In this document: in pieces, positions 1-15,691 of the stretch
How the letters are laid out: each line of letters opens with the position of its first letter
How positions within the stretch are numbered: the first letter of the stretch is position 1
DNA from: Mesorhizobium sp. RMAD-H1
Lineage (GTDB): Bacteria > Pseudomonadota > Alphaproteobacteria > Rhizobiales > Rhizobiaceae
Reading direction: 5' to 3'
NCBI RefSeq assembly: GCF_014191375.1
Contig: NZ_JACHWN010000005.1
Span: forward strand, 62,001 to 126,000
DNA: 64,000 nt
Translations under genes and position numbers: made by a program
Notes under the pieces: model-generated
The model's input: the letters and a program-made list of their open reading frames with translations, nothing else
Database searches by the model: none
Told to the model about the DNA's origin: nothing

Positions 1-2
1 TG

Positions 3-182
3 TTCCCGATGTTGATGAAGATCATGAAGAAGCTGGAGAAGGCCGGCATTTCGGAGAGGGGCGACAGCGATGCTGCTCGCCTACAGGAACATTTTCAGGC
101 GCGATTGGTTTCTATCGGTCCCGCTTTTTCTGTCTCATGCGCATGTCGCCAGGGTGAGAAGGCCGGGAACCAAACGCAATGA
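3..182 (+). CDS. Possible 3' end of a hypothetical gene (partial)
   Basis: An open frame enters from the left edge and stops at 180-182. Its first part (FPMLMKIMKKLEKAGISERG, then an acidic stretch) looks protein-like, but the second half becomes Cys-rich and non-descript, and a stress-type promoter (86-110) lies inside it. No family is recognised. It could equally be non-coding 5' sequence of the gene at 213. Confidence 0.2.
   Translation, partial: FPMLMKIMKKLEKAGISERGDSDAARLQEHFQARLVSIGPAFSVSCACRQGEKAGNQTQ
86..110 (+). promoter_or_regulatory. EcfG-type promoter for the gene at 213
   Basis: GGAAC at 86-90, 16-nt spacer, GGTT at 107-110. This matches the alphaproteobacterial general stress promoter (GGAAC-N16/17-cGTT). 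Expected start near 117, leaving a leader of about 95 nt before the ATG at 213. Confidence 0.6.
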
Positions 183-212
183 AGTCGGATGCGTTTTCGT
201 CAGGAGAGATCA

Positions 213-488
213 ATGAGCGAATCGAAAACCACCACCGATCATGAAACCATCCGCAAATGGGCCGAGGCGCGGGATGGCCATCCCGCCCGGGTCAAGACCT
301 CGGGTCCCGGCGGGATACTCAGAATCGATTTCGGCGAGCCGGAGGAAAGCCTGGAAGAGATTTCATGGGACGAATTCTTCAAGATCTTCGACGACAACGA
401 TCTGGCCTTTCTCTATCAGGACACCGCATCGGGCGGCGGCAAGAGCCGCTTCAACAAATTCATCGAACGCGGCTCCGAACACCGGTAA
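213..488 (+). CDS. Small hypothetical protein, conserved rhizobial type
   Basis: Encodes 91 residues, acidic, with no signal peptide or membrane segment. The centre carries GGILRIDFGEPEESLEEI followed by SWDEFFKIFDDNDLAFLYQD, a pattern I recognise from small rhizobial proteins of unknown function that databases sometimes mislabel as glucan branching enzyme. It is far too short for that enzyme. The ATG at 213 is preferred over the one at 189 because AGGAGA lies 6-7 nt before it. It has its own stress-type promoter and a hairpin terminator, so it is a single-gene unit, probably induced with the neighbouring stress genes. Function unknown. Confidence 0.75.
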   Translation: MSESKTTTDHETIRKWAEARDGHPARVKTSGPGGILRIDFGEPEESLEEISWDEFFKIFDDNDLAFLYQDTASGGGKSRFNKFIERGSEHR

Positions 489-514
489 CGGCGCCTCCCG
501 GCGCCGCCTTTTCT
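489..514 (+). terminator. Rho-independent terminator after the gene at 213
   Basis: A 7-bp GC stem CGGCGCC/GGCGCCG (489-495 and 500-506) with a 4-nt loop is followed by CCTTTTCTC. It sits directly after the stop at 488. Confidence 0.65.
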
Positions 515-520
515 CATACA

Positions 521-937
521 TCACGGATCGCTGTATCCGAGCGCCCTGACGCGGAGCTGCGCCGTGCCGGGATCGGAATTGAAGAAGAAGGCGCCGCGCC
601 GCGTCGAATTCCGGGGAATATAATCGAACTCGATCTCGGCGGTTTCGACGGTCGCTCCATTGCGCTCCAGAACGCCGCTCATCCGCACGGCCTCGGCCGT
701 CTCGCTTCCCTGATTGGTGACGGTGACCGGAACGCGGAACGCATCGCCCACCCGTTCGGTCCTGCCGATCTCATAGGCGAAGCGCGGCGGATCGGATGAA
801 ACGAAAAGCGCCTGGTAAAGAAGGAAGCCCAGCAATCCCAGGATGGCCAGTGCAGAGATCGCGCCCAGCACCCATTCGACGGGATGGGCCGTTCCCTCCT
901 TGACCACCGCCTCCTGCCTCCCGGTTTCTTTCGCCAT
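521..937 (-). CDS. TIGR02588 family protein, single-pass membrane anchor
   Basis: Encodes 138 residues. One transmembrane helix lies near residues 20-42 (VEWVLGAISALAILGLLGFLLYQ), followed by an Ig-like beta-rich domain containing VPVTVTNQGSETAEAVRMSG. This is the TIGR02588 pattern, a family usually encoded next to TIGR02587 membrane proteins, as here. The ATG at 937 is chosen because AGGAAAGG precedes it; an upstream GTG at 967 lacks this. It is the last gene of a three-gene leftward operon and starts 38 nt after the TIGR02587 stop. Function unknown; the domain probably faces the periplasm. Confidence 0.85.
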   Translation of the reverse strand: MAKETGRQEAVVKEGTAHPVEWVLGAISALAILGLLGFLLYQALFVSSDPPRFAYEIGRTERVGDAFRVPVTVTNQGSETAEAVRMSGVLERNGATVETAEIEFDYIPRNSTRRGAFFFNSDPGTAQLRVRALGYSDP

Positions 938-974
938 ATCCAGCCTTTCCTGCCCGTTGCGTTCCACACCATGA

Positions 975-1847
975 TCAAAGGATCAGCCGCGCCGCCGCCG
1001 CGCCCACCGACGACGGGAAGGCCAGCACGATCATCGCCATGACCGCCTGCCCGAACGTCAGATCGTCGGTGCGGCCGAAAATCCAGAGAACGAAGAGGCT
1101 CACGCCCGCTGCGATCACATAGCCCGGCAGGGTGAAGCGGATGAGCGCGCTCCACCACGGCGTCTGCGGCGAGAGCTCCGTGCCTCCCTGGAAGCCGAGG
1201 GCGAACACGAAGCCGTGCATGACGGCGAGCGAGAGCAGGACGAGCGCGATCGCATACCACTGCGTCATCCGATAGGAGATGAGCATGGGTTCCTCGGTCG
1301 GTGCGATGTTGAAGCCCAGGAAGAGGGCGCCCACGCCCATCAGGAACAATTCGCTTCCATAGGAATCTTCCCGCTGCTGGTCCGGCTCGTTGGAAGCCGC
1401 CACGAACTGGCTGCGCGCGAGCAGCGCGCCTATGCCCGCCGGGATCGTCTGTAGGGCGATCGTGCCTGCGATCTCCGTTGCAGCCATATCGAAACTGATG
1501 GCCCTGAAGAGGATCAGCACCGTCGCGCTGGTAATGACGCCGATACCGAGCGCAAAGACGGCATCGAGGATAATGTCCGGCCAGGATGGGCTGTGCCGGA
1601 ACCCGATGCGATGCGACAGCCCGATGAGGAGCGGAAACGAAAGGGCCATCAGCACCGCCAGCCGGACCGGCTCGGCGTAAAAGCCGAGCCACCACATCTC
1701 CATCGTCATCAGCATCGGCAGCGAAAAGATCAGCGCGCCGCCCACCGCCCGTCCGCTGTCCTTGAAAAGCTTACCGGTGGAGGAGCGCATCTGCCTTTTG
1801 CCGGCAGACGAACCGGATATTCCCTTCCCTTTTCCATTGCCGCTCAT
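975..1847 (-). CDS. TIGR02587 family integral membrane protein
   Basis: Encodes 290 residues with about seven hydrophobic segments, for example ALIFSLPMLMTMEMWWLGFY near the N terminus and ALIRFTLPGYVIAAGVSLFV near the end. The basic N-terminal tail is cytoplasmic-looking. It matches the TIGR02587 family, almost always paired with TIGR02588. Start at 1847 (ATG with CAGGTGA upstream) is preferred over a TTG at 1877. It is the middle gene of the operon 2206-521, driven by the stress-type promoter at 2259-2283. The biochemical role of this pair is not known. Confidence 0.85.
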   Translation of the reverse strand: MSGNGKGKGISGSSAGKRQMRSSTGKLFKDSGRAVGGALIFSLPMLMTMEMWWLGFYAEPVRLAVLMALSFPLLIGLSHRIGFRHSPSWPDIILDAVFALGIGVITSATVLILFRAISFDMAATEIAGTIALQTIPAGIGALLARSQFVAASNEPDQQREDSYGSELFLMGVGALFLGFNIAPTEEPMLISYRMTQWYAIALVLLSLAVMHGFVFALGFQGGTELSPQTPWWSALIRFTLPGYVIAAGVSLFVLWIFGRTDDLTFGQAVMAMIVLAFPSSVGAAAARLIL

Positions 1848-1873: not shown

Positions 1874-2206
1874 TCAATTGTCCTGGGGCTGATCAGGTAC
1901 GGTGCCGGGCGGGATGACGGGCGTCTTGCCGGTATCGGGAGGGGGGATGTCCGATTCGGTGTCTCCCGTGGGCGGTGGCTTCAATACGCCCTTGCAGCGT
2001 TCCAGCCGCTTCGCCAGATCTTCGCGGGTCTCGCCCTGCTCTGCGTCCTTCTGCCCCCCCTCCGGCTGCGCCCGGCATTCCGGCGGAATTTCTCCGCTGT
2101 CCTTCCGGTCCTGGCCGCCCGTCCCGTTGTCCTGGGCAATAGCGGGCAGCGATGTGCAGGCAAGCAGCGATATGCCGAGCAAAGCGATGATTGTTCGATT
2201 GGGCAT
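1874..2206 (-). CDS. Secreted hypothetical protein, Pro/Asp-rich
   Basis: Encodes 110 residues. A clear signal peptide (MPNRTIIALLGISLLACTSLPAIAQ) should be cleaved after AIA. The mature part is short, hydrophilic and low-complexity: IPPECRAQPEGGQKDAEQ, one further Cys, then a Pro/Thr/Asp-rich tail. The two Cys could form a disulfide. GAGG before the ATG at 2206 fixes the start. It is first in the operon with the TIGR02587/88 pair. No family recognised. Confidence 0.7.
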   Translation of the reverse strand: MPNRTIIALLGISLLACTSLPAIAQDNGTGGQDRKDSGEIPPECRAQPEGGQKDAEQGETREDLAKRLERCKGVLKPPPTGDTESDIPPPDTGKTPVIPPGTVPDQPQDN

Positions 2207-2258: not shown

Positions 2259-2283
2259 AACGCCCGGGCTTCATTCCTGTTCC
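2259..2283 (-). promoter_or_regulatory. EcfG-type promoter for the 2206-521 operon
   Basis: On the minus strand: GGAAC (2283-2279), 16-nt spacer, CGTT (2262-2259). An exact consensus match placed about 50 nt upstream of the ATG at 2206. It is back to back with the promoter at 2300-2324. Confidence 0.75.
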
Positions 2284-2299: not shown

Positions 2300-2324
2300 G
2301 GAACATGTCGGGTTCTGCATTGTT
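2300..2324 (+). promoter_or_regulatory. EcfG-type promoter for the MDR-Gfo/Idh operon
   Basis: GGAAC (2300-2304), 16-nt spacer, TGTT (2321-2324). It is divergent from the promoter at 2259-2283. The leader to the ATG at 2348 would be short, about 15-20 nt. Confidence 0.65.
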
Positions 2325-2347: not shown

Positions 2348-3361
2348 ATGATCATGACGCTGAACAAGCCAATGAAGCTCGAAACGCTTTCACCGGTGCG
2401 CATGATGAACGCCGCCGTCGTCACCGGACCGGGTGAATTGCGCATCGAAACCGTTGCGTTGCCCGAACCGGCGGCCGGCCAGGTGCGCGTGAAGCTGCAA
2501 GGATGCGGGGTATGCGCCTCGAACCTGGTGCCATGGGCCGGGCCGGAATGGATGCAGTTTCCGACGGAGCCCGGCGGCCTCGGCCATGAAGGCTGGGGGA
2601 TCATCGATGCCGTCGGTCCGGATGTAGATACGGTCAAGGAAGGGGACCGGGTCGCCGCCCTGTTCTATCACAGCTATGCCGAATACGATATCGGCGATGC
2701 CGAGGCCGTCGTGAAAATACCGCCCGAAATGGCCGATCAGCCTTTCCCCGGCGAACCGCTCGGCTGCGCGATGAACATCTTCCACCGCAGCGACATCCAG
2801 CCCGGCCAGGTCGTGGCCATTGTCGGCGCCGGTTTCATCGGCGCGCTGCTCTGCCGTCTCATCACCCGGGCTGGCGCCGATGTGATCGCCCTTTCCCGCC
2901 GGGGCTTCGCCCTTGACATGGCGAAGCGGATGGGCGCCAGCGAGACGATCGCACTTGACGACCATCATGCCGTCATCGACCGGGTGAAGACGTTGACGGG
3001 CGGCCTCTTCTGCGACCGGGTCATCGAGGCGACAGGCAAGCAATGGCCGCTCGATCTCGCCGCCGAGATCACGCGGGAGCGCGGCCGGCTGATCATCGCC
3101 GGCTATCACCAGGACGGCGCCCGGCAGGTCAACATGCAGCTCTGGAACTGGCGCGGGCTCGACGTCATCAATGCCCATGAACGCGATCGCGCCATCTATA
3201 TCCAGGGCATGCGCGAGGCGGCCGAAGCGGTGGCTGCCGGGATGCTCGACCCCCTGCCGCTTTACACCCATCATTTTCCCCTGTCGCGCCTCGACGAAGC
3301 GCTCAATGCGACGAGGGACCGCCCAGAAGGTTTCATGAAAGCCCTGGTGATGATGCAATGA
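2348..3361 (+). CDS. Zinc-type medium-chain dehydrogenase (MDR family)
   Basis: Encodes 337 residues. An N-terminal GroES-like domain contains the catalytic-zinc region (GCGVCASN near residues 52-59, then GLGHEGWG near 78-85), followed by a Rossmann domain with VAIVGAGFIGALLCRL near residues 156-171. The four-Cys structural zinc lobe is absent, so it is a reduced MDR. It probably oxidises or reduces a polyol, sugar or similar alcohol with NAD(P). GAAGGGG precedes tandem ATGs at 2348 and 2354. Its stop overlaps the next start (ATGA), so the two dehydrogenases are coupled and likely act on the same compound. Substrate unknown. Confidence 0.85.
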   Translation: MIMTLNKPMKLETLSPVRMMNAAVVTGPGELRIETVALPEPAAGQVRVKLQGCGVCASNLVPWAGPEWMQFPTEPGGLGHEGWGIIDAVGPDVDTVKEGDRVAALFYHSYAEYDIGDAEAVVKIPPEMADQPFPGEPLGCAMNIFHRSDIQPGQVVAIVGAGFIGALLCRLITRAGADVIALSRRGFALDMAKRMGASETIALDDHHAVIDRVKTLTGGLFCDRVIEATGKQWPLDLAAEITRERGRLIIAGYHQDGARQVNMQLWNWRGLDVINAHERDRAIYIQGMREAAEAVAAGMLDPLPLYTHHFPLSRLDEALNATRDRPEGFMKALVMMQ

Positions 3362-4383
3362 CGGTACTCGACCAGATGCAGAGATCGAACGCCACGCTCA
3401 AGCGGCCGAGGCTCGGCTTCCTCGGCGTGGGATGGATCGGCCGCCAGCGCATGGAAACGGTCCTGGCCTCGGGCTATGCCGAAGCGGCGGCGATCGCCGA
3501 CCCGTCGCCGGAAATGACAGCCGCCGCCAAGGAAATGGCGCCCTATGCGGAAACGGTTTCGTCGCTCGACGAATTGCTCGAGATCGGTCTCGACGGTGTG
3601 GTGATCGCGACGCCGAGCGCCTTGCATGCCGCGCAATCGATCGAAGCCCTGAAGCGCGGCGTGGCGGTGTTCTGCCAGAAACCGCTCGGCCGCACGGCCA
3701 CGGAGGTCGAGGAAGTGGTGAGAACGGCTCGCGAGGCGGACCGGCTGCTGGGCGTGGACCTCTCCTACCGCTTCACCGAGGCGATGCGATGCGTACGCGA
3801 CAGCATCCAGAGCGGCGAGATCGGGCCTGTCCATGCGGCGGAACTCGTCTTCCACAACGCCTATGGGCCGGACAAGCCATGGTTCTACCAGCCGGAACTG
3901 TCTGGCGGCGGCTGCGTCATGGATTTAGGCATCCATCTCGTCGACCTCGCCCTGTGGGCGCTGGATTTTCCCGCCGTCGCGCAGGTTTCCGGCAATCTCT
4001 TCTCGGAAGGCGAGCGCCTTGGCGCAAATCCCGAGCGGGTCGAGGATCATGCGGTGGCGACGCTTGAATTGGAGACGGGCGCGGTGGCGCGCCTCGCCTG
4101 CTCCTGGCGGCTCCACGCCGGATGCGACGCGGACATCTCGGCCACCTTCTATGGGCGGAACGGCGCCCTCTGCTTCTCGAATGTCGGCGGCTCCTTCTAT
4201 GATTTCAAAGCCGAACGGTTCACCGGCACGAGCCGGCAGACGCTGATCAGCCCGCCCGATGCCTGGGGAGGAGTGGCGGCCGTGGACTGGGCGCGACGGC
4301 TCGCGGCCGGCTCCGGCTTTTCGGCCGCGGCCGAGGACTATGTGAAGGTCGCAGCCGTTCTCGACCGCATCTACGGGCGTTAG
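3358..4383 (+). CDS. Gfo/Idh/MocA family oxidoreductase
   Basis: Encodes 341 residues. The N-terminal Rossmann fold has GFLGVGWIGRQRM near residue 21. The family signature is present as QKPLG (near 108) and the substrate-side helix carries GGCVMDLGIHLVD near residue 182, with the His expected to act in catalysis. The family oxidises or reduces cyclitols and sugars with NAD(P). The start overlaps the MDR stop by 4 nt, so the pair forms a stress-promoter-driven operon of two dehydrogenases. I cannot name the substrate; interconversion of an inositol- or sugar-derived compound is a reasonable guess. Confidence 0.85.
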   Translation: MTVLDQMQRSNATLKRPRLGFLGVGWIGRQRMETVLASGYAEAAAIADPSPEMTAAAKEMAPYAETVSSLDELLEIGLDGVVIATPSALHAAQSIEALKRGVAVFCQKPLGRTATEVEEVVRTAREADRLLGVDLSYRFTEAMRCVRDSIQSGEIGPVHAAELVFHNAYGPDKPWFYQPELSGGGCVMDLGIHLVDLALWALDFPAVAQVSGNLFSEGERLGANPERVEDHAVATLELETGAVARLACSWRLHAGCDADISATFYGRNGALCFSNVGGSFYDFKAERFTGTSRQTLISPPDAWGGVAAVDWARRLAAGSGFSAAAEDYVKVAAVLDRIYGR

Positions 4384-4396: not shown

Positions 4397-5482
4397 TCAG
4401 GCGATGTGATTGTTCCCCGGGCGCTCGAGCCAGCGCAGCACGACCGCCTCCTCGGGATGGAGCCCTTCCGGCGGCTTGCGCATGTGGCGGCGGATCGCCC
4501 CAAGCTCGCCGGCGAGCCGGCCATCGCTCCACGCCGCCATGACCGAGGGGTGGATATAGCATTGGCGGCAGATGGTGCGGGTATTGCCGAGCTTTGCGGC
4601 GACCTGGTCGATGACGGTGTTCATCACCCGGGCGCGCTCGCGTTTGGTCTCCGGCACCTCCGTCTCCGCAAAAAGGCCGGCCGCCCGCACCGTGCCGCCC
4701 CAGGTCCTGAAATGCTTGGAGCTGAAGGAGGTGCCGGCTACCTCACGGATATATTCGTTGACGTCCTGCGATACGACGGAGCGGCGCTTCCCCTCGTCAT
4801 CGAGATATTGGAAAAGCCGCTGGTCCGGCAGGTCCTGCAGGGCCCGTATCACCCTTGCGATGCGGCGGTCGGTGATCCTGAGCTTCCACTCCTTTCCCGA
4901 TTTCCCGCTGAACTGCAGCCGGAGCGTCGAGCCCTCCAGCTCCACATGCTGCTCGCGCAAGGTGGTGAGGCCGAAACTGTTGTTCTCCCTGGCATAGGAC
5001 GGATTGCCGATGCGGATCATGGCGCGGTCGAGCAGCCATACGATCGAGGCGAGCACACGCTCGCGCGGCACGCCATGCCGGCGCAGGTCGCGGTCCACCT
5101 GCGCGCGCAGCTTGGGCAGCGACCGGGCGAAGGCGGTGAGGCTCGCGAATTTCACCTCGTCACGATAGAGGGTCCAGCGGGGGTGGTAGCGATATTGCTT
5201 GCGGCCGCGGGCATCACGGCCTGTCGCCTGGATGTGGCCATTGTCGGCAGGGGAAATCCAGACATCGGTCCAGGCCGGCGGAATAGCGAGGCTTCTTATG
5301 CGCTGCAGCGTTTCCTCGTCGGTCACCTTGCCGCCGCCGGCCCGAACATACCAGAAGCCTCTTCCGGCCCGACGACGCCGGATTCCCGGCTCCGTGTCGC
5401 TGCAATAGACGAGGGAAGCGGCCCGCGCTGTCGCCTCGGCGTCCACATATTCATTCTCCCCGATTTCCGGTGCCTTGAGCAC
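4397..5482 (-). CDS. DNA topoisomerase IB (eukaryotic/poxvirus type)
   Basis: Relaxes supercoiled DNA through a 3'-phosphotyrosine. Encodes 361 residues. The N-terminal domain has GRKQYRYHP (near 93-101). The catalytic domain shows the expected residues: Arg157 in RIGNPSYARENNSFGL, the Lys region FSGKSGKEW (191-199), Arg259 in SSKHFRTWGGT and Tyr309 in CRQCYIHPSV. The GTG at 5482 is chosen because GGAGGG precedes it at good spacing; a more upstream ATG at 5566 would add a non-conserved tail and overlap the promoter. It has its own stress-type promoter (5519-5543) and converges on the Gfo/Idh gene. Family membership is firm; a stress or DNA-repair role is inferred from context. Confidence 0.92.
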   Translation of the reverse strand: MLKAPEIGENEYVDAEATARAASLVYCSDTEPGIRRRRAGRGFWYVRAGGGKVTDEETLQRIRSLAIPPAWTDVWISPADNGHIQATGRDARGRKQYRYHPRWTLYRDEVKFASLTAFARSLPKLRAQVDRDLRRHGVPRERVLASIVWLLDRAMIRIGNPSYARENNSFGLTTLREQHVELEGSTLRLQFSGKSGKEWKLRITDRRIARVIRALQDLPDQRLFQYLDDEGKRRSVVSQDVNEYIREVAGTSFSSKHFRTWGGTVRAAGLFAETEVPETKRERARVMNTVIDQVAAKLGNTRTICRQCYIHPSVMAAWSDGRLAGELGAIRRHMRKPPEGLHPEEAVVLRWLERPGNNHIA

Positions 5483-5518: not shown

Positions 5519-5543
5519 AACGGACGATGATGCAACCGGTTCC
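5519..5543 (-). promoter_or_regulatory. EcfG-type promoter for topoisomerase IB
   Basis: Minus strand GGAAC (5543-5539), 16-nt spacer, CGTT (5522-5519). Exact match, about 37 nt upstream of the GTG at 5482. It supports that start over the ATG at 5566. Confidence 0.75.
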
Positions 5544-5559: not shown

Positions 5560-5585
5560 GGAACATAGGGAGCCGCCGGCGCGTT
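5560..5585 (+). promoter_or_regulatory. EcfG-type promoter for the 5614-6477 operon
   Basis: GGAAC (5560-5564), 17-nt spacer, CGTT (5582-5585). Exact match and divergent from 5519-5543. Start expected near 5592, some 20 nt before the ATG at 5614. Confidence 0.75.
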
Positions 5586-5613: not shown

Positions 5614-5919
5614 ATGACGGAAATCACACATGAGGAAATCGAAGGCCGACTGATCGCCCAGCGCGAGATACTGGGCTTCATGCTTGCGCTGCTGGCCCGG
5701 CGGGAAGATGTGGGCGAGCCGTTCTGGAACGCGCTGGAGGAAAGGGCGACGTTCCAGAACCAGCAGGAGGATCCAGGCGTTCTGCCGACACGCGCCTTCG
5801 CCGCGGAAGCCGCCATGATGCGCGAGTTCAGGCTGATCTTGGACGAAGCCCGGGCACGGTTCAACGAGGCCAAGGGGAAAGACCGGAACCATTCGCAGCC
5901 GCCCGAATTAGAGGAATAA
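5614..5919 (+). CDS. Hypothetical protein, helical
   Basis: Encodes 101 residues, charged and predicted mostly alpha-helical by eye (EEIEGRLIAQREILGFMLAL and AAMMREFRLILDEARARFNE). No signal peptide or membrane segment. An AGGGG lies upstream of the ATG at 5614, which falls just downstream of the stress promoter, while the alternative start at 5584 would overlap that promoter. First of a three-gene unit with the DUF427 gene and the small membrane protein. No family recognised. Confidence 0.65.
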   Translation: MTEITHEEIEGRLIAQREILGFMLALLARREDVGEPFWNALEERATFQNQQEDPGVLPTRAFAAEAAMMREFRLILDEARARFNEAKGKDRNHSQPPELEE

Positions 5920-9220: not shown

Positions 9221-10660
9221 TTAGCCGGCTACCGTATACGCATCGTCCTCGATGCGCGGGCAATCCGGTATCGTTTTGGAGAACCCGCAAGGCGCCTTTC
9301 TCAGCGCTTCAAGGAACGTGGTCTGCCACCAGCGCGCATCCGTGCGCCTGATGCGCTCCAACAGCCGCTGGTGGCGTTCTCTCCGCTCCTGCAGCGGCAT
9401 GGTGGCCGCCCGCTTCATCGCAGCCGCGATCTCGCCCGCATCATAAGGATTGACAATGAGCGCTTCGCGAAGCTGCTCGGCGGCACCGGCAAATTTCGAC
9501 AGGACCAGCACACCGGGATCGCCCGGGTGCTGAGCGGCTACATATTCCTTCGCCACGAGATTCATGCCGTCGCGCAGGGGCGTGATCAGCCCGATGCGGC
9601 TGGCGCGGAAAAGACAGGCGAGCTTGTCGCGCGGGATACTGCGATTGATATACTGGACCGGCGACCAGTTGAACTCGGCATATTTTCCGTTGACCGCACC
9701 CGCCAATTGCTCGAGCTCGGCCTTGATCTCGGTATAGGCCGGAACGTCCTCACGTGATGGGGAAGCGATCTGCAGATATTCGGCACATCCCCGATATTCG
9801 GGATAGGTATTCAGGAATTCCAGGAAGGCCCTGGTGCGATCGGGAAGCCCTTTCGAATAATCGAGCCGATCGGCCGAGATCATCTGGATGCGCCCCAGCA
9901 CATCGCGCCGCATCCGCTCCAGCTCCACCGCGTCGTCTACCTTCTCCGCCATTTCAGCGAATTGCGCCACGTCGATGCCGATGGGGAATGCGCCGATCCG
10001 GATGGTGCGGCCGGACGCCCTGATGAGATCGTCGGAGATGAACTCCACATCCGAATTTTCCACGAGATAGAAGCGGAAATTTTCCAGGTCCCTGCTCGTC
10101 TGAAAGCCGATCAGATCGAAGTCCAGAAGGCAGTTGCGCAGCCATTCATGCCGCGGCACGGCCGAGAAGATTTCGGCGGACGGAAAAGGGATATGCAGAA
10201 AAAACCCCATCTTGTGGTTGCTTCCAAGCTTGCGTAGTTCGCGGGCAACGCCGATCAGGTGATAATCGTGAACCCAGATGAGATCGTCCTTCTTCAGCTC
10301 GGGAAAGGCGATCCGGGCGAACCGCCTGTTGACGGCCGCATAGGCCTGCGCGAAATCCTCGTTGAACTCTATGAGGTCGAGACGGTAGTGGAACGAAGGC
10401 CACAGCACCCTGTTGGAAAAGCCGAGATAATAGTTCTCATGTTCCTCTTGCGTCAGCGAAAAGGTAAGCGTCGTTACCGTTTTGTGATCCCTGCGGCGGG
10501 CCGCCGGATATTCATCGTCGCTGCTGACGCAGCCGTTCCAGCCCACCCATAGACCTCCGCCCCGCCTCAGCGCATCGGCTATGCCGACTGCCAATCCACC
10601 GATCTGCGTTTTCTCGCCGATTTCGGCGACACGATTCGATATGATGACCAGACGCTCCAC
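9221..10660 (-). CDS. otsA: Trehalose-6-phosphate synthase (UDP-forming)
   Basis: Transfers glucose from UDP-glucose to glucose-6-phosphate, giving trehalose-6-phosphate, in the cytoplasm. Encodes 479 residues, the usual length of GT20 OtsA. Seen: GGLAVG near 22-27 (UDP-glucose loop), WVHDYHL near 133, GFFLHIPFPSAEIF near 155, SADRLDYSKGLPDR (donor-binding Arg and Lys) and TPLRDGMNLVAKEYVAAQ. GTG start at 10660 with AGGTG upstream. No trehalose-phosphatase (otsB) is adjacent. A near-consensus stress promoter lies upstream; trehalose synthesis under EcfG control is well established in rhizobia and relatives. Confidence 0.95.
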   Translation of the reverse strand: MERLVIISNRVAEIGEKTQIGGLAVGIADALRRGGGLWVGWNGCVSSDDEYPAARRRDHKTVTTLTFSLTQEEHENYYLGFSNRVLWPSFHYRLDLIEFNEDFAQAYAAVNRRFARIAFPELKKDDLIWVHDYHLIGVARELRKLGSNHKMGFFLHIPFPSAEIFSAVPRHEWLRNCLLDFDLIGFQTSRDLENFRFYLVENSDVEFISDDLIRASGRTIRIGAFPIGIDVAQFAEMAEKVDDAVELERMRRDVLGRIQMISADRLDYSKGLPDRTRAFLEFLNTYPEYRGCAEYLQIASPSREDVPAYTEIKAELEQLAGAVNGKYAEFNWSPVQYINRSIPRDKLACLFRASRIGLITPLRDGMNLVAKEYVAAQHPGDPGVLVLSKFAGAAEQLREALIVNPYDAGEIAAAMKRAATMPLQERRERHQRLLERIRRTDARWWQTTFLEALRKAPCGFSKTIPDCPRIEDDAYTVAG

Positions 10661-10695: not shown

Positions 10696-10720
10696 AACTC
10701 TTGCGGGCCGAAGCAGTTCC
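10696..10720 (-). promoter_or_regulatory. EcfG-type promoter for otsA
   Basis: Minus strand GGAAC (10720-10716), 16-nt spacer, AGTT (10699-10696). The first -10 base differs from consensus, but the GTT core is kept. About 35 nt upstream of the GTG. Confidence 0.6.
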
Positions 10721-10778: not shown

Positions 10779-11507
10779 TCAACGGGCGCCGAGGACCATC
10801 TCGCGCAACCAGCGCAGAAGCAGAAAATCATAGGCCTGCTGGCATTCGCGGGTGTTCAAGGCGTGATCGGCGCCCTCGATCACACGGGAGGTGAGCGAAC
10901 GGGCGTAGAGAAAGGCCGCGCGATAGCTGGCGATGACAGTGAAGGGAATGATCTCGTCATTCTCGGACGAGACGATCAGGACATCGCCCTTAAACGAGCG
11001 ACAGTTGCGCAGCGCCCTGTTTTCCTCGGCCGGGATGATCGACGAGCGGTAACGGGCGAGATCCTCCCGATCCAGAGCCGCCTTGGGGACATCCCAGTTC
11101 TGGTCCCTGTAAAGAGCCGGCGCCCGCAGGGCCAGCCAGCGGACCGGTCGCTGCGAGGTCAGGATGGAGGCCAGATAGCCGCCATAGCTGCTGCCGACGA
11201 CGGCGATCGAATCCGGATCGACGGAGGGATGCGACGCCAGCACGTCGTAGGCGGCAAGGACATCGCCGAGATTGTCGCCCCTCGTCACCGACGGCAACTG
11301 CGAGCGCGTCCCGGCATGGCCGCGCATGTCGAAGGTGAAGCAGATGCAGCCGAGAGCAGCTATATCCTGCGCGCGCTCCATGTCGCGCTCCTGGCTGCCG
11401 GCCCAGCCGTGCAGGAAAAGAATGCCGGGTGTTCCCGTCTTCGGCAGGGCAAAGGTGCCGAGAATCTCCTCATGATTCACTCCTATCGAGACCTGTCTGC
11501 TAAACAT
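10779..11507 (-). CDS. Alpha/beta hydrolase
   Basis: Encodes 242 residues. It has the oxyanion segment LHGWAGSQ (32-39), nucleophile elbow GSSYGG with Ser107, acid Asp184 in SENDEIIP and His215 in GADHAL, a complete Ser-Asp-His triad. Likely a cytoplasmic esterase, thioesterase or acyl-peptidase-like enzyme; no signal peptide. Its ATG overlaps the stop of the DUF3182 gene, so the two are translationally coupled and probably act together. Confidence 0.85.
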   Translation of the reverse strand: MFSRQVSIGVNHEEILGTFALPKTGTPGILFLHGWAGSQERDMERAQDIAALGCICFTFDMRGHAGTRSQLPSVTRGDNLGDVLAAYDVLASHPSVDPDSIAVVGSSYGGYLASILTSQRPVRWLALRAPALYRDQNWDVPKAALDREDLARYRSSIIPAEENRALRNCRSFKGDVLIVSSENDEIIPFTVIASYRAAFLYARSLTSRVIEGADHALNTRECQQAYDFLLLRWLREMVLGAR

Positions 11508-12591
11508 GATATCGTGCCTCCAATCTTGCGTATTTCGTCATTGGTCCTTCCTGTGGATCCTCCCCTGCAAAGCAAACCAGATCGGCCCGGGTGGCGGGCT
11601 CCGTGCGGCCGAACACCTCGTATGACGCGGCCTCGACAGCGGCGAGCGACGGCTTCTCCTTGAAAGCCTCGAGGGCGAGAAGCTCGGCACTGCTGGCGCC
11701 TCCCAGCCGCCAGGACTGTTCCAGCACACCGATCTTCCGCTTGCCCCGGCTATCCGTCCCGACGAGGACGTCATAGTTCTTCCGCGAGGCGACCAGCTTC
11801 AGGACATCGTGCGCGAGGTCGTCATAGAGCTTCCCGGCCAGGACGATGCGCGTCGCCGCCGCATCCTTTAGCCAGCCCGTCAAAGCGGACCAGCCGCCGC
11901 GTACGGCGCAGAAGCGCGTCCCGCCATAGGCCGGCTGGTTATGGTTGTTGGTGGTCATCCTCTGGGTACCGAAATAGGAAATGCAGATATCGTCGAGGAT
12001 CACCTGACCGACGCTGTAGGTCATGGCCTCCTCCATGTCTTCCTCCACGACGTAACCTCCCGCCAGGCTCGCCGGCTCCAGAAGATCGAGGAAGCCATAG
12101 AGGGCCATCCTGTCGGCGATCACCATCTGGCCACGGCCTCCGTCGGCGAGCGCCGACTTGACCCGGATGCGGCCCTTCGCCAGCAGATCCTCGGCGGCGC
12201 GGATCAGGTCCTTCGTGGTGAAGACCGAGAAGCCCTCCAGCACAATTTTTTCCAGCTGTGCGCCCAATCCGTGCTGCCAGTTCGCCGGTGCATGGGCAGC
12301 GTCCGCCACCAGCGGATGGGAGATGACTTTCGTCGCCATGAAAGCATTCGGCACGATGCCGCCGAAGAGATCATGACAATTGAAAGCGGCCCGGTCGCCA
12401 ATACCGTCTTCCAGCGCTATCGTTTCGAGCGGGACGTAGTAGCAGTCGGCCATCGTCCCGAACGCAGCAGGCAGCGCTGCCTCCAGAAAGGTGCAGCCCT
12501 TCAACTCTGCGATCTTGCGGCCGAGACTGGCCAATGTGGCAAGCTTGTGGGACGGGTGATCGCCCGCATAAGCAAGAACGACGTTTCTCAT
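11500..12591 (-). CDS. DUF3182 family protein, ATP-grasp-like
   Basis: Encodes 363 residues. It opens with VVLAYAGDHPSHKLATLASLG, then shows FFxT-like segments FSVFTTKDLIRAAEDLLAKG, RIRVKSALADGGRGQMVI and YVVEEDMEEAMTYSVGQVIL. The Lys-then-Gly-rich-loop-then-EED order looks like an ATP-grasp ligase fold, which I infer rather than know for this family. If so it would ligate a carboxylate to an amine. First gene of the pair with the hydrolase. A degenerate stress-type promoter (GGAAC at 12658-12654, then 16 nt, GCTT) is the only candidate seen. Confidence 0.8.
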   Translation of the reverse strand: MRNVVLAYAGDHPSHKLATLASLGRKIAELKGCTFLEAALPAAFGTMADCYYVPLETIALEDGIGDRAAFNCHDLFGGIVPNAFMATKVISHPLVADAAHAPANWQHGLGAQLEKIVLEGFSVFTTKDLIRAAEDLLAKGRIRVKSALADGGRGQMVIADRMALYGFLDLLEPASLAGGYVVEEDMEEAMTYSVGQVILDDICISYFGTQRMTTNNHNQPAYGGTRFCAVRGGWSALTGWLKDAAATRIVLAGKLYDDLAHDVLKLVASRKNYDVLVGTDSRGKRKIGVLEQSWRLGGASSAELLALEAFKEKPSLAAVEAASYEVFGRTEPATRADLVCFAGEDPQEGPMTKYARLEARYHV

Positions 12592-12703: not shown

Positions 12704-12729
12704 GGAACGCTTCGCGGGGACGAGGCGTT
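12704..12729 (+). promoter_or_regulatory. EcfG-type promoter for the lipoprotein gene
   Basis: GGAAC (12704-12708), 17-nt spacer, CGTT (12726-12729). Exact match; start expected near 12736, ATG at 12773. Confidence 0.75.
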
Positions 12730-12772
12730 AGGAATGGCAGAACAGGCCCTTGCACTTCGCCGGGAGATGGAC

Positions 12773-12979
12773 ATGAAGCCGACCACCGTTGCCGTTCTTA
12801 CCCTCTTGCTCGCCCTTGCCGCCTGCAACAACGAGGAACAGGACCGCACAATGGACAATACGACGGAGCCCGATCCCAAGGTACGGACCGACAAGACCCC
12901 GGATACGGGAACAGGCGGGCCTGTGCCGGAGACGCCCACGGACGACGATCAGCAGAAGATGCGCAGTCCGTCCGACTGA
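12773..12979 (+). CDS. Small lipoprotein, 68 residues
   Basis: Encodes 68 residues. The signal sequence MKPTTVAVLTLLLALAAC ends in a lipobox (LALA-C), so the mature protein starts at a lipidated Cys and has 51 residues, acidic and Thr/Pro/Asp-rich, low complexity. Envelope location is expected. CGGGAGA before the ATG. It resembles entericidin-like or small rhizobial stress lipoproteins only in layout. Own exact stress promoter. No defined function. Confidence 0.75.
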   Translation: MKPTTVAVLTLLLALAACNNEEQDRTMDNTTEPDPKVRTDKTPDTGTGGPVPETPTDDDQQKMRSPSD

Positions 12980-13025: not shown

Positions 13026-13050
13026 GGAACCTAGAACCTTCGGTGACGTT
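13026..13050 (+). promoter_or_regulatory. EcfG-type promoter for the sigma factor gene (autoregulation)
   Basis: GGAAC (13026-13030), 16-nt spacer, CGTT (13047-13050). Exact match, 47 nt before the ATG at 13097, implying that this sigma factor or a paralogue activates its own gene. Confidence 0.75.
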
Positions 13051-13096: not shown

Positions 13097-13654
13097 ATGC
13101 AAGCCGTCAGTGAGCGCCAGCCGGATCATGTTGTAAACGATTTAAAAGATCAGATGGCGTCTATCCTGCCTGCGCTGAGAGCTTTTTCCCGCACGTTCTT
13201 CAAAAATCCTGACGACGCCGACGATCTAGTTCAAGAAACACTTAGAAAAGCTTTGGGAAGTCTTCATCAGTTTACTCCAGGAACAAGCATGAAATCATGG
13301 TTGTTCACTATAATGCGCAATACTTACAATACAGCAGTGAGACTAAAGCTAAGAGAGGTGACCGGATCAGAGCGCTGTATTTCCGAAAACTGCAGTACAA
13401 GCGCAAATCAGGAATGGGTGTCGCGTGCCAGGGAATTGCAGGATGCGCTGCACGAAATCCATCCGGAGATGCGCGAGGTGATCATCCTGGTTTCCGTCAT
13501 GGGGAGCAGCTATGAGGAAGCTGCCGAAATCTGCGGCTGTGCGATCGGAACCATCAAGAGCCGATTGAACCGTGGAAAAGCCCAGCTTCTCGAAAAGCTC
13601 GGGGAGGAGAACCGCCATTCCGTGCTGGAGACGCCGCAGCAGGGAAGGTTCTGA
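13097..13654 (+). CDS. ecfG: ECF sigma factor, EcfG (general stress) class
   Basis: Directs RNA polymerase to stress promoters. Encodes 185 residues. Sigma-2 has LRAFSRTFFKNPDDADDLVQ and the region 2.4-like MKSWLFTIMRNTYN; sigma-4 has MGSSYEEAAEICGCAIGTIK followed by SRLNRG. The SYEEAAEICGC-GTIKSR segment is characteristic of EcfG (ECF15). AGGAG precedes the ATG at 13097. In alphaproteobacteria EcfG is held by NepR, which is sequestered by phosphorylated PhyR; neither phyR nor a HWE kinase is in the window. The 5' half is clearly AT-richer than its neighbours (43% GC over 13141-13320 by hand count), and it is not in the usual nepR-ecfG operon, so it may be a secondary, acquired copy. Confidence 0.9.
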   Translation: MQAVSERQPDHVVNDLKDQMASILPALRAFSRTFFKNPDDADDLVQETLRKALGSLHQFTPGTSMKSWLFTIMRNTYNTAVRLKLREVTGSERCISENCSTSANQEWVSRARELQDALHEIHPEMREVIILVSVMGSSYEEAAEICGCAIGTIKSRLNRGKAQLLEKLGEENRHSVLETPQQGRF

Positions 13655-13670: not shown

Positions 13671-13874
13671 TTACTTCCTCTCTTTATCGTCTCCTTTCTC
13701 TTTCTGCTTTTCGAGCTGCCGAACCAGCTGGAACTGCAACTGTTCCCATAAACGCCGGGTTTCGGCGGGCACCGGAATTGCGTCAATATACTCGCCGAAG
13801 CGGCGCAGCTCCTCATCGAGCTCGTTGAACGACGTTGCGCCCTCGCCGTCGGTTTTTTGTTCTTTTTGCTTCAT
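13671..13874 (-). CDS. Candidate NepR-like anti-sigma factor
   Basis: Encodes 67 residues, very charged, no membrane segment. The core FNELDEELRRFGEYIDAIPV followed by PAETRRLWEQLQ fits the NepR layout: an LR pair, nine residues, P-[IV]-P, five residues, then L-x3-L. NepR binds and inhibits EcfG-type sigma factors. The gene is tail to tail with the sigma gene, only 16 nt between stops, and has its own stress-type promoter, as expected for negative feedback. Start at 13874 follows AGGGAG; an ATG at 13940 is in frame but lies upstream of the promoter. Assignment rests on a short remembered pattern, so it is a hypothesis. The Lys/Glu-rich tail is longer than in typical NepR. Confidence 0.55.
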   Translation of the reverse strand: MKQKEQKTDGEGATSFNELDEELRRFGEYIDAIPVPAETRRLWEQLQFQLVRQLEKQKEKGDDKERK

Positions 13875-14011
13875 GCGACGCGCTCCCTTTCCATCAACGC
13901 CCCTTCCAACAAATCCGGGATTGGCATGTTCCTGAAACATTCCGCGGCATGCGCAATAATGGCATGCGCATCGAACAAGCCCTCGGGCCTGCGCTCAGCC
14001 AGCAAGGTCAT
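13871..14011 (-). CDS. Possible small gene overlapping the NepR-like start
   Basis: A 46-residue frame (MTLLAERRPEGLFDAHAIIA, then HAAECFRNMPIPDLLEGALM) with GGGGGA nine bases before its ATG and an ATGA overlap with the NepR-like gene. It could be a coupled upstream gene, but the NepR-like promoter lies inside it and no family is recognised. It may be chance. Confidence 0.25.
   Translation of the reverse strand: MTLLAERRPEGLFDAHAIIAHAAECFRNMPIPDLLEGALMERERVA
13908..13932 (-). promoter_or_regulatory. EcfG-type promoter for the NepR-like gene
   Basis: Minus strand GGAAC (13932-13928), 16-nt spacer, TGTT (13911-13908), about 34 nt before the ATG at 13874. Confidence 0.65.
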
Positions 14012-14103
14012 ATGGATCATTCCCCCGAAGCCCGTAGAAGCATAACGCCTACGGCTTTCCAATTTGCAAACACCACAGGCTGCCGGATCGCGTGTCGCCC
14101 ACA

Positions 14104-14128
14104 GGAACAATCCCCGGATGAAACGGTT
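14104..14128 (+). promoter_or_regulatory. EcfG-type promoter for the 14168-14852 operon
   Basis: GGAAC (14104-14108), 16-nt spacer, GGTT (14125-14128); start expected near 14135, then GTG at 14168. Confidence 0.65.
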
Positions 14129-14167
14129 AGTCGTCCACGTACAAATGGATTGAGGAGCTACAGGATC

Positions 14168-14332
14168 GTGACCCAACTCGAAGCTTTTCTGTATGTGATG
14201 GGGATCGGGCTGGCTATATGCGCATTTCTGGGGGTCGGCATCCTCGTCCTTTACCTGAATTCACCGGACAAACCGAAAGTGCAGGCCGTCCCGCCGAAGG
14301 GCGAGCGCAGGCCGGCGGAAGTTTCAGCATAG
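14168..14332 (+). CDS. Small single-pass membrane protein, 54 residues
   Basis: GTG start with GGAG about 10 nt upstream. One transmembrane helix (residues 5-30, EAFLYVMGIGLAICAFLGVG then ILVLYL) and a short Pro/Lys-rich tail. It ends 10 nt before the DUF892 gene, with which it should share the stress promoter. Function unknown. Confidence 0.6.
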   Translation: MTQLEAFLYVMGIGLAICAFLGVGILVLYLNSPDKPKVQAVPPKGERRPAEVSA

Positions 14333-14342
14333 GAGCCGAGCG

Positions 14343-14852
14343 ATGGCACGTTCCGACATTCTGATCAATTACTGGCTCCGGGATGCACATGCGATGGAGG
14401 AACAGGCCATCACGATGCTGAACGGCCAATTGCTGCGGCTGGAAAACTATCCCGAACTGAGTTCGCGGATCAAAGACCATGTCGAGGAGACGAAAAGGCA
14501 CGCCGAGCTCATTCGCGGCTGCCTGGAACGGCGCGGAGCAGGGCCTTCGACGGTCAAGGACACGACCGGCAAGCTTATGGCCATGGCGCAATCCCTGGGC
14601 GGCATATGGGTGAACGACGAGGTGGTGAAGGGCTCGCTCGCCAGCTACACCTTCGAGCAGATGGAGATCGCCAGCTACCGCATATTGATTGCGGCGACGG
14701 ATTACGTCGGCGACCTCGCCACCAGAAAGATCTGCGAAGAGATCCTCAAAGAGGAAGAAGCCATGGCCGGATGGCTGGCCGAGAATTTCTCCCCGACCGT
14801 CAAGCAGTTTCTCCAGCGAGATCAGGTGGCGTCGGAAGAAGCCAAGCGCTAG
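14343..14852 (+). CDS. Ferritin-like DUF892 (YciE-type) protein
   Basis: Encodes 169 residues forming a four-helix bundle: WLRDAHAMEEQAITMLNGQL, HVEETKRHAELIRGCLERRG, SYTFEQMEIASYRILIAATD and KICEEILKEEEAMAGWLAEN. Glu/His pairs (EETKRH, EQMEIASY) sit where a di-iron site is expected. DUF892 proteins are stress-induced in many bacteria and thought to protect against oxidative or osmotic stress; the chemistry is unproven. Start has AGGAG at good spacing. Second gene of the 14168 unit; its stop overlaps the convergent DUF2189 gene by 4 nt. Confidence 0.9.
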   Translation: MARSDILINYWLRDAHAMEEQAITMLNGQLLRLENYPELSSRIKDHVEETKRHAELIRGCLERRGAGPSTVKDTTGKLMAMAQSLGGIWVNDEVVKGSLASYTFEQMEIASYRILIAATDYVGDLATRKICEEILKEEEAMAGWLAENFSPTVKQFLQRDQVASEEAKR

Positions 14853-15691
14853 GACCTGGCCACGGCTCTCTCAGCCCGCCTTGCCTGCATGGACGCATTC
14901 GGCTCCACGACGCGGCGATAAAGGTGCCATGTCGCATGGCCGAGCACCGGAATCACGATTGCCAAGCCGGCGAACAGGGTGACGAAGCCCACCACCAGCA
15001 GACCTGCAACGATCAGCCCCCAAAGCAGCATGGCGACAGGATTGACCAGAACGGAACGGATCGAGGTCACGATCGCCGGGAATGCGCCGACATCGCGATC
15101 GAGCAGCAGGGGGAATGTGACGACGCTGGTGCACAGCACCACCAAGGCAAAGCCGAAGCCGATGAGATTGCCCCAAAGGATGAGGCGCAGCCCCTCTTGC
15201 GTGGTGAAGACCTGACTGATGAATTCGCCGATCGTCCGGGGGACCGCGGCGCCGAACAAGTTCTGGTAGAGCGCCTGCGCGGTGAGAAGCCAGGCGATGA
15301 AAATGGCAAAAAGCAGGATACCAACGGCCATGACGGAGGGAATGGCCGGAGAGCGCACCACGTCGAAGGCATGCCGCCAGGACGTATCGAGCCCCAACTC
15401 CCGCCGGCGGCTGATCTCGTAAAGGCCGATCGCCGCAAGCGGGCCGAGCAGCGCGAAGCCGGACATCAGAGGATAGAGGAGCGGCAGCGTGTTGGCGCCC
15501 GATGTCCAGCGGGCGATGACGAGGCCGGCGACGGGATATATCAGGCAGAGAAAGACGTAATGGGAAGGCTTTTCCCAGAAATCATCGAAACCCTGGCGAA
15601 GGGCGGCGGCGACATCCGAAACGCCGATCCGGCGCACCTCCGGATAGACGGGGGCTTCACTTGCACCGGCAATGACATGAAATTGGGCCAT
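14849..15691 (-). CDS. DUF2189 integral membrane protein
   Basis: Encodes 280 residues. A short cytoplasmic start contains RRIGVSDVAAALRQGFDDFW, the DUF2189 signature, followed by about six transmembrane segments (YVFLCLIYPVAGLVIARWTS, YPLMSGFALLGPLAAIGLYE, AVGILLFAIFIAWLLTAQAL and others). The family is common in alphaproteobacteria and has no assigned role. The ATG at 15691 follows CGGAGA; the open frame upstream of it is not protein-like. No EcfG-type promoter was found for it. Confidence 0.88.
   Translation of the reverse strand: MAQFHVIAGASEAPVYPEVRRIGVSDVAAALRQGFDDFWEKPSHYVFLCLIYPVAGLVIARWTSGANTLPLLYPLMSGFALLGPLAAIGLYEISRRRELGLDTSWRHAFDVVRSPAIPSVMAVGILLFAIFIAWLLTAQALYQNLFGAAVPRTIGEFISQVFTTQEGLRLILWGNLIGFGFALVVLCTSVVTFPLLLDRDVGAFPAIVTSIRSVLVNPVAMLLWGLIVAGLLVVGFVTLFAGLAIVIPVLGHATWHLYRRVVEPNASMQARRAERAVARS

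Follow-up and report, generated by a model that had tools for sequence, protein, structure and literature searches.

An accessory cluster of predicted EcfG-type promoters around a non-canonical EcfG sigma factor in Mesorhizobium sp. RMAD-H1

The window, a stretch of 64,000 nucleotides from Mesorhizobium sp. RMAD-H1, contains in its left part an EcfG-type sigma factor gene surrounded by small hypothetical genes and genes for known protein families, many of them behind a GGAAC...GTT motif (Table 1). Gene identities were taken from Pfam and NCBIfam scans, which bore out the names given in an earlier note on this DNA (topoisomerase IB, UdgX, PRC barrel, OtsA-like GT20, DUF892, sigma factor). The OtsA-like protein scored 541.6 bits, below the TIGR02400 cut-off of 564.85. 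Our home-made gene calling overlooked or misinterpreted some small genes and placed a false ORF over the DUF892 gene; coordinates were therefore corrected by hand, and the exact starts of small genes are uncertain.

Table 1. Genes and GGAAC...GTT sites in window positions 1 to 15,691
Feature	Position	Strand	Basis or remark
Additional site across left window edge	-18 to 6		
EcfG-type promoter GGTT, before 213-488	86..110	+	GGAAC and GTT retained in G001, G005
u91, small hypothetical gene, 91 aa	213..488	+	no Pfam match
u138, hypothetical gene	521..937	-	Pfam scan
DUF2391 / TIGR02587 membrane protein	975..1745	-	
u110, small hypothetical gene	1874..2206	-	
EcfG-type promoter CGTT, 52 nt ahead of u110	2259..2283	-	pattern, congener conservation
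EcfG-type promoter TGTT, 23-29 nt ahead of dehydrogenase	2300..2324	+	pattern, congener conservation
Zinc-type alcohol dehydrogenase	2354..3361	+	Pfam
GFO/IDH/MocA oxidoreductase	3358..4383	+	Pfam
Bacterial DNA topoisomerase IB	4397..5482	-	Pfam, scanned with longer start (4397-5566)
EcfG-type promoter CGTT, 36 nt ahead of topoisomerase IB	5519..5543	-	pattern, congener conservation
EcfG-type promoter CGTT, 28 nt ahead of 5614	5560..5585	+	pattern, congener conservation
u101, hypothetical gene	5614..5919	+	
DUF427	5950..6300	+	Pfam
u108, hypothetical gene	6505..6831	-	
EcfG-type promoter CGTT, 39 nt ahead of u108	6871..6895	-	pattern, congener conservation
UdgX, longest ORF	6869..7660	-	Pfam/NCBIfam
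Candidate EcfG-type promoter GGTT of udgX	7597..7621	-	
PRC-barrel protein	7698..8321	-	Pfam
EcfG-type promoter CGTT, 58 nt ahead of PRC gene	8380..8405	-	
EcfG-type promoter GGTT, ahead of u65	8440..8464	+	pattern, congener conservation
u65, hypothetical gene	8546..8743	+	
EcfG-type promoter GGTT, 36 nt ahead of u118	8776..8800	+	pattern, congener conservation
u118, hypothetical gene	8837..9193	+	
OtsA-like trehalose-6-phosphate synthase, GT20	9221..10660	-	Pfam/NCBIfam
Intragenic site	10390-10414		antisense within otsA
EcfG-type promoter AGTT, 35 nt ahead of otsA	10696..10720	-	retained in G001, not G005
Alpha/beta hydrolase	10779..11507	-	Pfam
DUF3182	11500..12591	-	Pfam
EcfG-type promoter CGTT, ahead of lipoprotein-like gene	12704..12729	+	pattern, congener conservation
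Small lipoprotein-like gene	12734..12979	+	by eye; start may be 12773
EcfG-type promoter CGTT, 46 nt ahead of sigma gene	13026..13050	+	pattern, congener conservation
Non-canonical EcfG-type sigma factor	13097..13654	+	Pfam, identity to core EcfG, tree
Intragenic site	13280-13305		within sigma gene
Weak candidate NepR-like anti-sigma	13671..13874	-	convergent to sigma gene
Intragenic site	13722-13746		within small convergent gene
EcfG-type promoter TGTT, 33 nt ahead of candidate NepR-like gene	13908..13932	-	pattern, congener conservation
EcfG-type promoter GGTT, ahead of 14170-14332 and DUF892	14104..14128	+	pattern, congener conservation
Ferritin-like DUF892	14343..14852	+	Pfam
DUF2189 membrane protein	14849..15691	-	Pfam

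Both strands were scanned with GGAAC-N17/18-GTT, which is equivalent to the GGAAC-N16/17-NGTT of the earlier note. In window positions 1 to 15,691, 18 matches start (CGTT 7, GGTT 6, TGTT 4, AGTT 1); without the three inside genes they are the 15 copies counted before (7/5/2/1). From 14,129 to 64,000, which includes the whole ~48 kb to the right of position 15,691, the scan gave no match. To the left, however, the extent of 1 to 15,691 given earlier proved too narrow: the cluster begins about 17 kb upstream of the window and reaches from -16.9k to 14.2k, so that the region is twice as long. GGAAC-N16/17-CGTT-type promoters stand ahead of its genes, as in an EcfG regulon, and about half of the promoter-placed sites carry GGTT, TGTT or AGTT in place of CGTT.

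These 31 kb hold 29 matches versus one for the reversed pattern, and rearranging the letters of the two boxes in 89 other ways never gave more than 8. The signal is also specific for spacing, with 21 sites at 17 and 8 at 18, whereas the remaining spacings from 10 to 27 gave 0 to 4. The genome as a whole (5.14 Mb) has 275 matches versus 195 for the reversed pattern. Most isolated matches elsewhere are thus chance, as the idea of a cluster born of chance or base composition would have it, and density is the informative measure. By this measure, the island is the densest cluster of the genome (21 unique CGTT/GGTT places versus 1.04 expected, 20-fold), followed by the phyR-nepR-ecfG core locus. 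Permutation, spacing, density and conservation controls together make a chance origin of the cluster a negligible prospect, although a chance origin is still conceivable for individual sites, 7597-7621 for instance.

Two congeners that carry the island (G001 and G005) provided the conservation control. Promoter-placed sites were retained in 24 of 25 cases in one and 20 of 25 in the other, versus 0 of 4 and 1 of 4 for misplaced sites; 20 promoter-placed sites are common to all three island-bearing genomes. A site at -9174, unalignable in G005, was scored as misplaced here; with a start of its gene further downstream within the ORF it would count as promoter-placed. In both congeners the boxes are better conserved than spacer and flank. 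The site at 7597..7621 is the only promoter-placed one lost in both; if it is the udgX promoter, the gene starts at TTG 7561 or ATG 7489. At 42 nt ahead of DUF3182 lies GGAAC-N16-GCTT, which reads GGAAC...ACTT in both congeners.

The motif also accompanies two of the genes outside the island context. u118 and the PRC gene retain an EcfG-type promoter in G002 and G003, both of which lack the island sigma, and the u118 promoter was found at all four homologues scored. The core EcfG can therefore probably read these promoters. Upstream of homologues of several other island genes the motif was never found (e.g. GT1 0/16, GFO 0/9). This is what an internal position in an operon would lead one to expect, without proving it. 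A mapped promoter precedes the PRC-barrel gene SMb20522 of S. meliloti (PMC6180224). This is no evidence that the PRC gene of the window is its orthologue: pSymB of strain 1021 is absent among the 25 plasmid records matching the PRC protein of the window. A tblastn search of plasmids with u118 gave no match.

The sigma factor itself is, judged by its sequence, a diverged non-canonical paralogue. It is only 41% identical to the canonical EcfG of the genome; thus the earlier picture of an EcfG regulon packed beside its sigma gene stands for the packing but not for a canonical EcfG. Like the core EcfG it matches PF04542, PF08281 and PF22029 (PhyR_sigma2, 42.3 bits, cut-off 27), i. e. it has the sigma-70 regions 2 and 4 and the kinship to the PhyR sigma-like domain that characterise ECF15, and region 4 of both proteins shares EEAAEICGCA-GTIKSR. 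In a midpoint-rooted tree of 115 rows, made of EcfG-like hits only, with no outgroup and without R. etli EcfG2, it belongs to a well-supported side of 67 rows (98*), separate from the canonical NepR-linked EcfGs. In the two congeners the sigma protein is 97% and 95% identical while island DNA is ~84% and 76% identical, which suggests selection on the protein. The promoter of the sigma gene is retained in both.

The canonical PhyR-NepR-EcfG locus (ECF15; G000:C8:274-285k, core at C8:277.5k) resembles the island in having an EcfG-type sigma, GGAAC-N16/17-CGTT promoters and many sites around the sigma gene. Unlike it, the island lacks PhyR as well as any NepR that Pfam can detect; the only Pfam NepR of the whole genome lies at C8:277575, beside PhyR and EcfG. 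Whereas the canonical NepR gene lies upstream of the sigma gene, the gene preceding the island sigma encodes the small lipoprotein-like ORF, and the candidate anti-sigma is convergent. No Pfam family, PF18557 (NepR) included, matched this product of 13671-13874 even at E 10. A home-made NepR profile gave E 0.04 for it, 0.078 for its G001 counterpart and 5.9 for a segment of 40 residues from the G005 one. The hhalign probability was 78-81 to the set of convergent NepR-like proteins and 1 to canonical NepR; among 150 decoys two exceeded 10, both of which were also matched by the home-made profile. We regard the gene as a weak candidate for a NepR-like anti-sigma with an EcfG-type promoter of its own.

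The sigma gene and the island are present in three of the six genomes of the genus. In G004 the site is exchanged between flanks common to relatives, and the DUF2189 gene, the right-hand neighbour common to G003 and G004, lies outside the variable segment. The term genomic island, used before, is thus justified by presence and absence among close relatives between common flanks, but it does not stand for a proven mobile element: no integrase or other mobility gene was found among the 40 island-region proteins scanned, which are all but a few small ORFs, and no tRNA in the window or the 42 kb upstream, the longest repeat between the island edges is 15 bp, and island GC is within the range of the surroundings. 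A plasmid origin is likewise unproven, with no repC found on the island contig C5 and the only RP-C of the genome on C7; the contigs may belong together. Since some close relatives have the island and others lack it, genes for stress tolerance may come and go together.

Site-rich surroundings of EcfG-like sigma genes are not confined to this genus. The island sigma was found in 74 of 297 genomes of the family, ~43 of them with the hit more than 100 kb inside a contig, as needed for a distant control stretch to exist. In the 30 analysed there were 7.1 sites per 20 kb around the sigma versus 1.0 at 75-95 kb distance, two of the sigma stretches (L142, L164) being shortened by a contig end. The sigma region was richer in 28 of the 30; L148 was opposite (5 versus 8) and L168 tied. 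The reversed pattern was also commoner near the sigma (1.76 per 20 kb versus a hand-summed ~0.73), and for 11 of 37 island proteins one or more of the distant control stretches also contained a homologue. Among 83 named sigma loci, the 29 with a PhyR or NepR match had 2.95 sites per 10 kb and the 54 without had 2.69 (reversed pattern 0.50 and 0.51), which does not support clustering as a peculiarity of non-canonical loci. Four sigma loci (L021, L040, L045, L051) lacked sites altogether. The expectation that EcfG targets are dispersed elsewhere agrees with pSymB of S. meliloti, where 1.68 Mb contain 42 CGTT-type sites versus 35 reversed, but not with the clustered core locus of our genome or with the equally site-rich PhyR- or NepR-matched loci.

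We think it likely that the island, of ~33 kb, serves the general stress response of Alphaproteobacteria as an accessory module, with a non-canonical EcfG, ~25 EcfG-type promoters and possibly a NepR-like anti-sigma, the genes of both regulators lying behind such promoters. From motif, positions, conservation, synteny and presence or absence, all directly observed, we infer a direction of control, an activity of the island sigma and a NepR-like function as follows. Upon stress, core EcfG would be released through PhyR and NepR at C8 and would switch on the island promoters, including that of the island sigma. The latter, which has almost the same -35-reading helix as the core EcfG, would add to or prolong island transcription until finally restrained by the NepR-like protein. 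In favour of this reading, RpoE2 of S. meliloti directly activates rpoE5 (SMb21484), the gene of its second ECF15 sigma (PMC6180224).

Possibly, though we consider it less likely than not, the island is just a dense patch of the core EcfG regulon and its sigma a passenger or nearly silent. The core locus forms a cluster too, and the u118 and PRC promoters persist without the island sigma. RpoE5 of S. meliloti seems to be such a copy: its overexpression yielded a single putative target (PMC6180224). This also speaks against the module reading, as does R. etli, where the EcfG1 motif precedes only 1 of 19 EcfG2-dependent units (PMC3892343); non-canonical EcfGs may hence read other promoters or few. 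A passenger, however, would hardly account for a sigma protein better conserved than the DNA around it, with its promoter retained in both congeners. Alternatively, island sigma and anti-sigma could serve the island and core EcfG the rest, as two regulons split by -10 differences. The grouping of sigma gene, candidate anti-sigma and promoters would suit this, as would the parallel R. etli EcfGs with partly separate regulons (PMC3892343, also PMC6180224). We nevertheless hold it to be unlikely: no island-specific -10 box is seen, CGTT and GGTT being split 19:20 outside the island (excess over reversed, counted by hand) versus 12:10 matches inside; the -35-reading residues of both sigmas are nearly the same; and u118 and PRC are promoted alike where the island sigma is missing.

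R. etli EcfG2, which is plasmid-borne, resembles the island sigma as a non-canonical EcfG without NepR or PhyR nearby; in contrast to our case, the consulted sections of PMC3892343 describe no island of targets, and 18 of 19 EcfG2-dependent units lack the EcfG1 motif. Like the island sigma gene, rpoE5 has a GGAAC promoter, and PMC6180224 mentions an unannotated RsiA-like ORF just downstream of it on the opposite strand. A convergent NepR-like ORF adjoins the sigma of L108, a record of S. meliloti without annotation that presumably contains rpoE5. The L108 sigma has 8 sites in 40 kb versus 29 in 31 kb in the island, and the near absence of targets of overexpressed RpoE5 is a further difference.

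The island suggests that stress genes, here for trehalose synthesis, DNA-maintenance proteins, a ferritin-like protein and a mechanosensitive channel, can be gained or lost as a unit yet remain wired to the stress switch of the host. A search limited to open-licence papers found no published EcfG island. Roughly every second completed genome of the Alphaproteobacteria has additional EcfG copies, an occurrence called not satisfactorily explained in PMC3892343; a copy amid ~25 EcfG-type promoters, absent with its island from three congeners, makes this question testable. More generally, non-canonical EcfGs of the Hyphomicrobiales could mark self-contained stress modules of a sigma, a convergent diverged NepR and mix-and-match EcfG-promoted genes, gained and lost as blocks; a large share of the general stress regulon of a species would then be an exchangeable cassette and not a dispersed core. 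We lean slightly against this generalisation, the more so as no more than 28 of the 115 tree rows showed a convergent NepR, with none found in 51. Some neighbours of the island sigma recur elsewhere: u138 and DUF2391 adjoin the sigma in 6 of the 30 relatives, and in Rhizobium sp. N621 (L107), whose sigma may not be an EcfG2 orthologue, a ferritin-like gene adjoins the sigma hit.

The best-supported view of the promoter cluster is that of an accessory general-stress module with a second sigma factor and possibly a restraining partner; through shared promoters it would be wired to the core EcfG. In a scan of both strands, 18 matches to GGAAC-N17/18-GTT were found within window positions 1-15,691 and none from 14,129 to 64,000. 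Three of the 18 fall inside genes; the 15 promoter-placed matches are those tallied in the earlier note (seven CGTT, five GGTT, two TGTT, one AGTT). The sites in the stretch which that note had taken as the island, 1-15,691, are thus real matches, but its left limit does not stand, as the cluster runs on for about 17 kb upstream of the window, which spans C5:62001-126000. The whole cluster holds 29 matches in 31 kb, the remaining 155 kb examined only 3. Within the cluster, the reversed pattern used as a control matched once, and each of 89 other box permutations at most 8 times. The two spacings of known GGAAC-N16/17-CGTT promoters gave 21 and 8 sites, whereas every other spacing between 10 and 27 gave 0-4.

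In the whole genome (5.14 Mb) the pattern matched 275 times and the reversed pattern 195 times (CGTT type, 108 versus 77; GGTT type, 79 versus 49). Density was ranked with 179 listed CGTT/GGTT matches at 172 unique places, 8 CGTT matches not being part of this set. Among the matches listed, the island is the densest place of the genome, with 21 places in 31 kb against 1.04 expected (Poisson 1.6e-20). The comparison of inside and outside density proposed in the earlier note, done here for GGAAC-spacer-CGTT/GGTT, puts the island 20-fold above expectation. It is followed by a place on C8 with 12, which contains the core phyR-nepR-ecfG locus, the second densest EcfG-promoter cluster among the matches listed, and by places on C10 and C1 with 7 each. 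Counted by strand, the island (0.6% of the genome) accounts for 22 CGTT/GGTT matches, compared with a genome-wide excess over the reversed pattern of 61; this share is rough, since chance matches of the island itself are still included.

Coordinates of the features in Mesorhizobium sp. RMAD-H1 and, in the last line, in the congener G004 (negative window positions lie upstream of the window start)
Feature	Window position	Contig position	Remark
Whole site cluster		C5:45.2k-76.1k	
Palindromic element GGAACG...CGTTCC	-14693 to -14666	C5:47307-47334	between two divergent genes
Promoter of glycosyltransferase/epimerase run	-18 to 6		
Site ahead of udgX	7597-7621		
GGAAC-N16-GCTT element ahead of DUF3182	12634-12658		minus strand
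Resident sigma gene	13097-13654		plus strand
Small ORF convergent to sigma	13671-13874		lies 16 nt past sigma stop codon
Promoter of small ORF	13908-13932		conserved
Core phyR-nepR-ecfG locus		C8:274.7k-284.8k	EcfG at C8:277751
End of left flank shared with G004	-18,017		
Exchanged site in G004 (L197)		G004:C4:146.4k-152.3k	5.9 kb

The window half of the island encodes dehydrogenases, topoisomerase IB, UdgX, an OtsA-like GT20 enzyme and an alpha/beta hydrolase, together with DUF2391, DUF427, a PRC barrel, DUF3182, the sigma factor and DUF892; some ten small genes match no Pfam family. In the upstream half are an MscS-type channel, an endonuclease/exonuclease/phosphatase, a lysylphosphatidylglycerol-synthase-like membrane protein, a FAD/Rieske oxidoreductase, PEBP, and a run of glycosyltransferase and sugar-nucleotide epimerase genes headed by a promoter of its own.

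Two congeners carry the island in collinear form, G001 at about 84% and G005 at about 76% DNA identity; 29 sites could be aligned in the former and 28 in the latter. Identity was 95% and 89% for the GGAAC letters and 94% and 91% for GTT, compared with 82% and 67% in the spacer and 73% and 60% in the flanking DNA. Both boxes were intact at 24 of 25 promoter-placed sites in G001 and at 20 of 25 in G005 (20 in both), but at none of the four misplaced sites in G001 and one of four in G005, where one of the four is unaligned. This retention of the boxes is strong evidence that the promoters are under selection. Only the site ahead of udgX was lost from both congeners among those placed as promoters. 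The palindromic element, which on either strand can be read as an EcfG-type promoter, is kept in both; the G005 copy is one base shorter with both readings intact. By coordinates, a like layout adjoins the sigma gene in the related stretch L107 (20505/20507) and lies near it in L108 from S. meliloti (21158/21160). The element preceding DUF3182, outside the searched pattern, reads ACTT in both congeners, so that GGAAC and CTT occur in all three genomes. This suggests that CTT is a -10 variant beyond the usual pattern.

The sigma gene was present in three of the six genomes of the genus. In G004, the right side resumes at DUF2189 after 5.9 kb of other DNA, which holds a partial match to the small gene u118 (residues 2-45); no site was found in the 50 kb taken. 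In G003, u118 and PRC lie directly beside DUF2189, each behind a site, and, distant GFO paralogues of the right flank aside, the 38-kb contig showed no further island gene. In G002 the same two genes, again each behind a site, adjoin the same right flank, with synteny readable up to the contig end 0.8 kb beyond them. Otherwise, searches of these three whole genomes with window 1-15,700 gave only scattered pieces (udgX, otsA, DUF892, core-sigma-like stretches). By this comparison, the island varies as a block whose place in the genome is fixed, and it overlaps an older, small stress locus. A scan of 40 proteins revealed no integrase; there was no tRNA in the window or the 42 kb before it and no flanking repeat above 15 bp, and repC sits on another contig. 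At the DUF892-DUF2189 junction, G001 (L101/L102) and the exchanged site of G004 carry a run of similar ORFs, absent from the window's genome, which by eye resemble terminal-oxidase subunits.

Which sigma factor reads these promoters? At least u118 and PRC keep their promoters where the island sigma is missing, which makes the core EcfG the probable reader. The island sigma shows both sigma regions, 2 and 4, and a PhyR_sigma2 match. It is 41% identical to the EcfG on C8, which comes after the one NepR that Pfam detects in this genome and is oriented divergently to PhyR; region 4, in the part reading the -35 box, is nearly identical between the two. In a tree of 115 sequences (midpoint root, no outgroup, R. 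etli EcfG2 not among them), the canonical EcfGs linked to NepR group together in 24 rows, 23 with NepR upstream (support 96). The island sigma falls on a different side of the tree, which comprises 67 rows (support 98) and includes, among others, secondary copies of S. meliloti (L108) and Rhizobium (L044, L048). Its nearest relatives found beyond the genus are at most 64% identical. The island sigma may itself be active, against two precedents: R. etli EcfG2 is largely independent, the EcfG1 motif occurring in a single one of its 19 units (PMC3892343), and S. meliloti RpoE5 has almost no targets (PMC6180224).

A restraining partner may be encoded next to it. Some loci of the non-canonical kind carry a small NepR-like ORF convergent to sigma; with a profile of canonical NepR only, such ORFs were found from E 7e-6 upward (e.g. 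L062, L042, L069), that of L108 at E 0.005. After iteration, the profile took in 43 small ORFs on the strand opposite a sigma and no further than 2.5 kb from it, some of them not immediately convergent; 28 of the 115 tree rows are labelled with a convergent NepR and 51 with none. The small ORF of the island has the position and orientation of the RsiA-like ORF described just downstream of RpoE5 on the other strand (PMC6180224). It has no Pfam match, and its NepR-profile match is weak (E 0.04; G001 copy 0.078; a 40-residue piece of the G005 copy 5.9). With hhalign, its probability was 78-81 to the convergent set and 1 to canonical NepR; of 150 decoys only two scored above 10, and the iterated profile matched these two as well. 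We regard it as a candidate NepR-like anti-sigma factor.

Close relatives of the island sigma occur in 74 of 297 family genomes. In 30 of these, 7.1 sites per 20 kb lay around sigma versus 1.0 in a stretch of the same contig at 75-95 kb distance; the count was higher near sigma in 28 genomes, tied in one and lower in one (Wilcoxon 6e-6). The reversed pattern was likewise commoner near sigma than far away (L136-L194). Homologues beside sigma in at least one genome were found for 28 of 37 island proteins, in distant stretches for 11. Three Stappia loci (L016-L018) have 14-15 sites in 20 kb and share homologues of DUF3182, the phosphatase, the hydrolase and several small unknowns. Elsewhere, 52 of 133 homologues of island genes had the motif within 250 nt upstream, versus 5 for the reversed pattern (u118 4/4, u72 7/9, PRC 5/6, GT1 0/16); DUF2391 scored 8/9, but the reversed pattern 4/9. 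A special role of the non-canonical sigmas is argued against by the equal site richness of named sigma loci with and without a PhyR or NepR match, and by four sigma loci with zero sites (L021, L040, L045, L051). S. meliloti pSymB has 42 CGTT-type sites, against 35 reversed, and these are widely spread, with no more than 4 in any 31 kb by eye. In Mesorhizobium, modules of this sort may lie on plasmids: on those such as NZ_CP033508.1 (236-239 kb), a sigma relative lies about 2.4 kb from a PRC-barrel gene.
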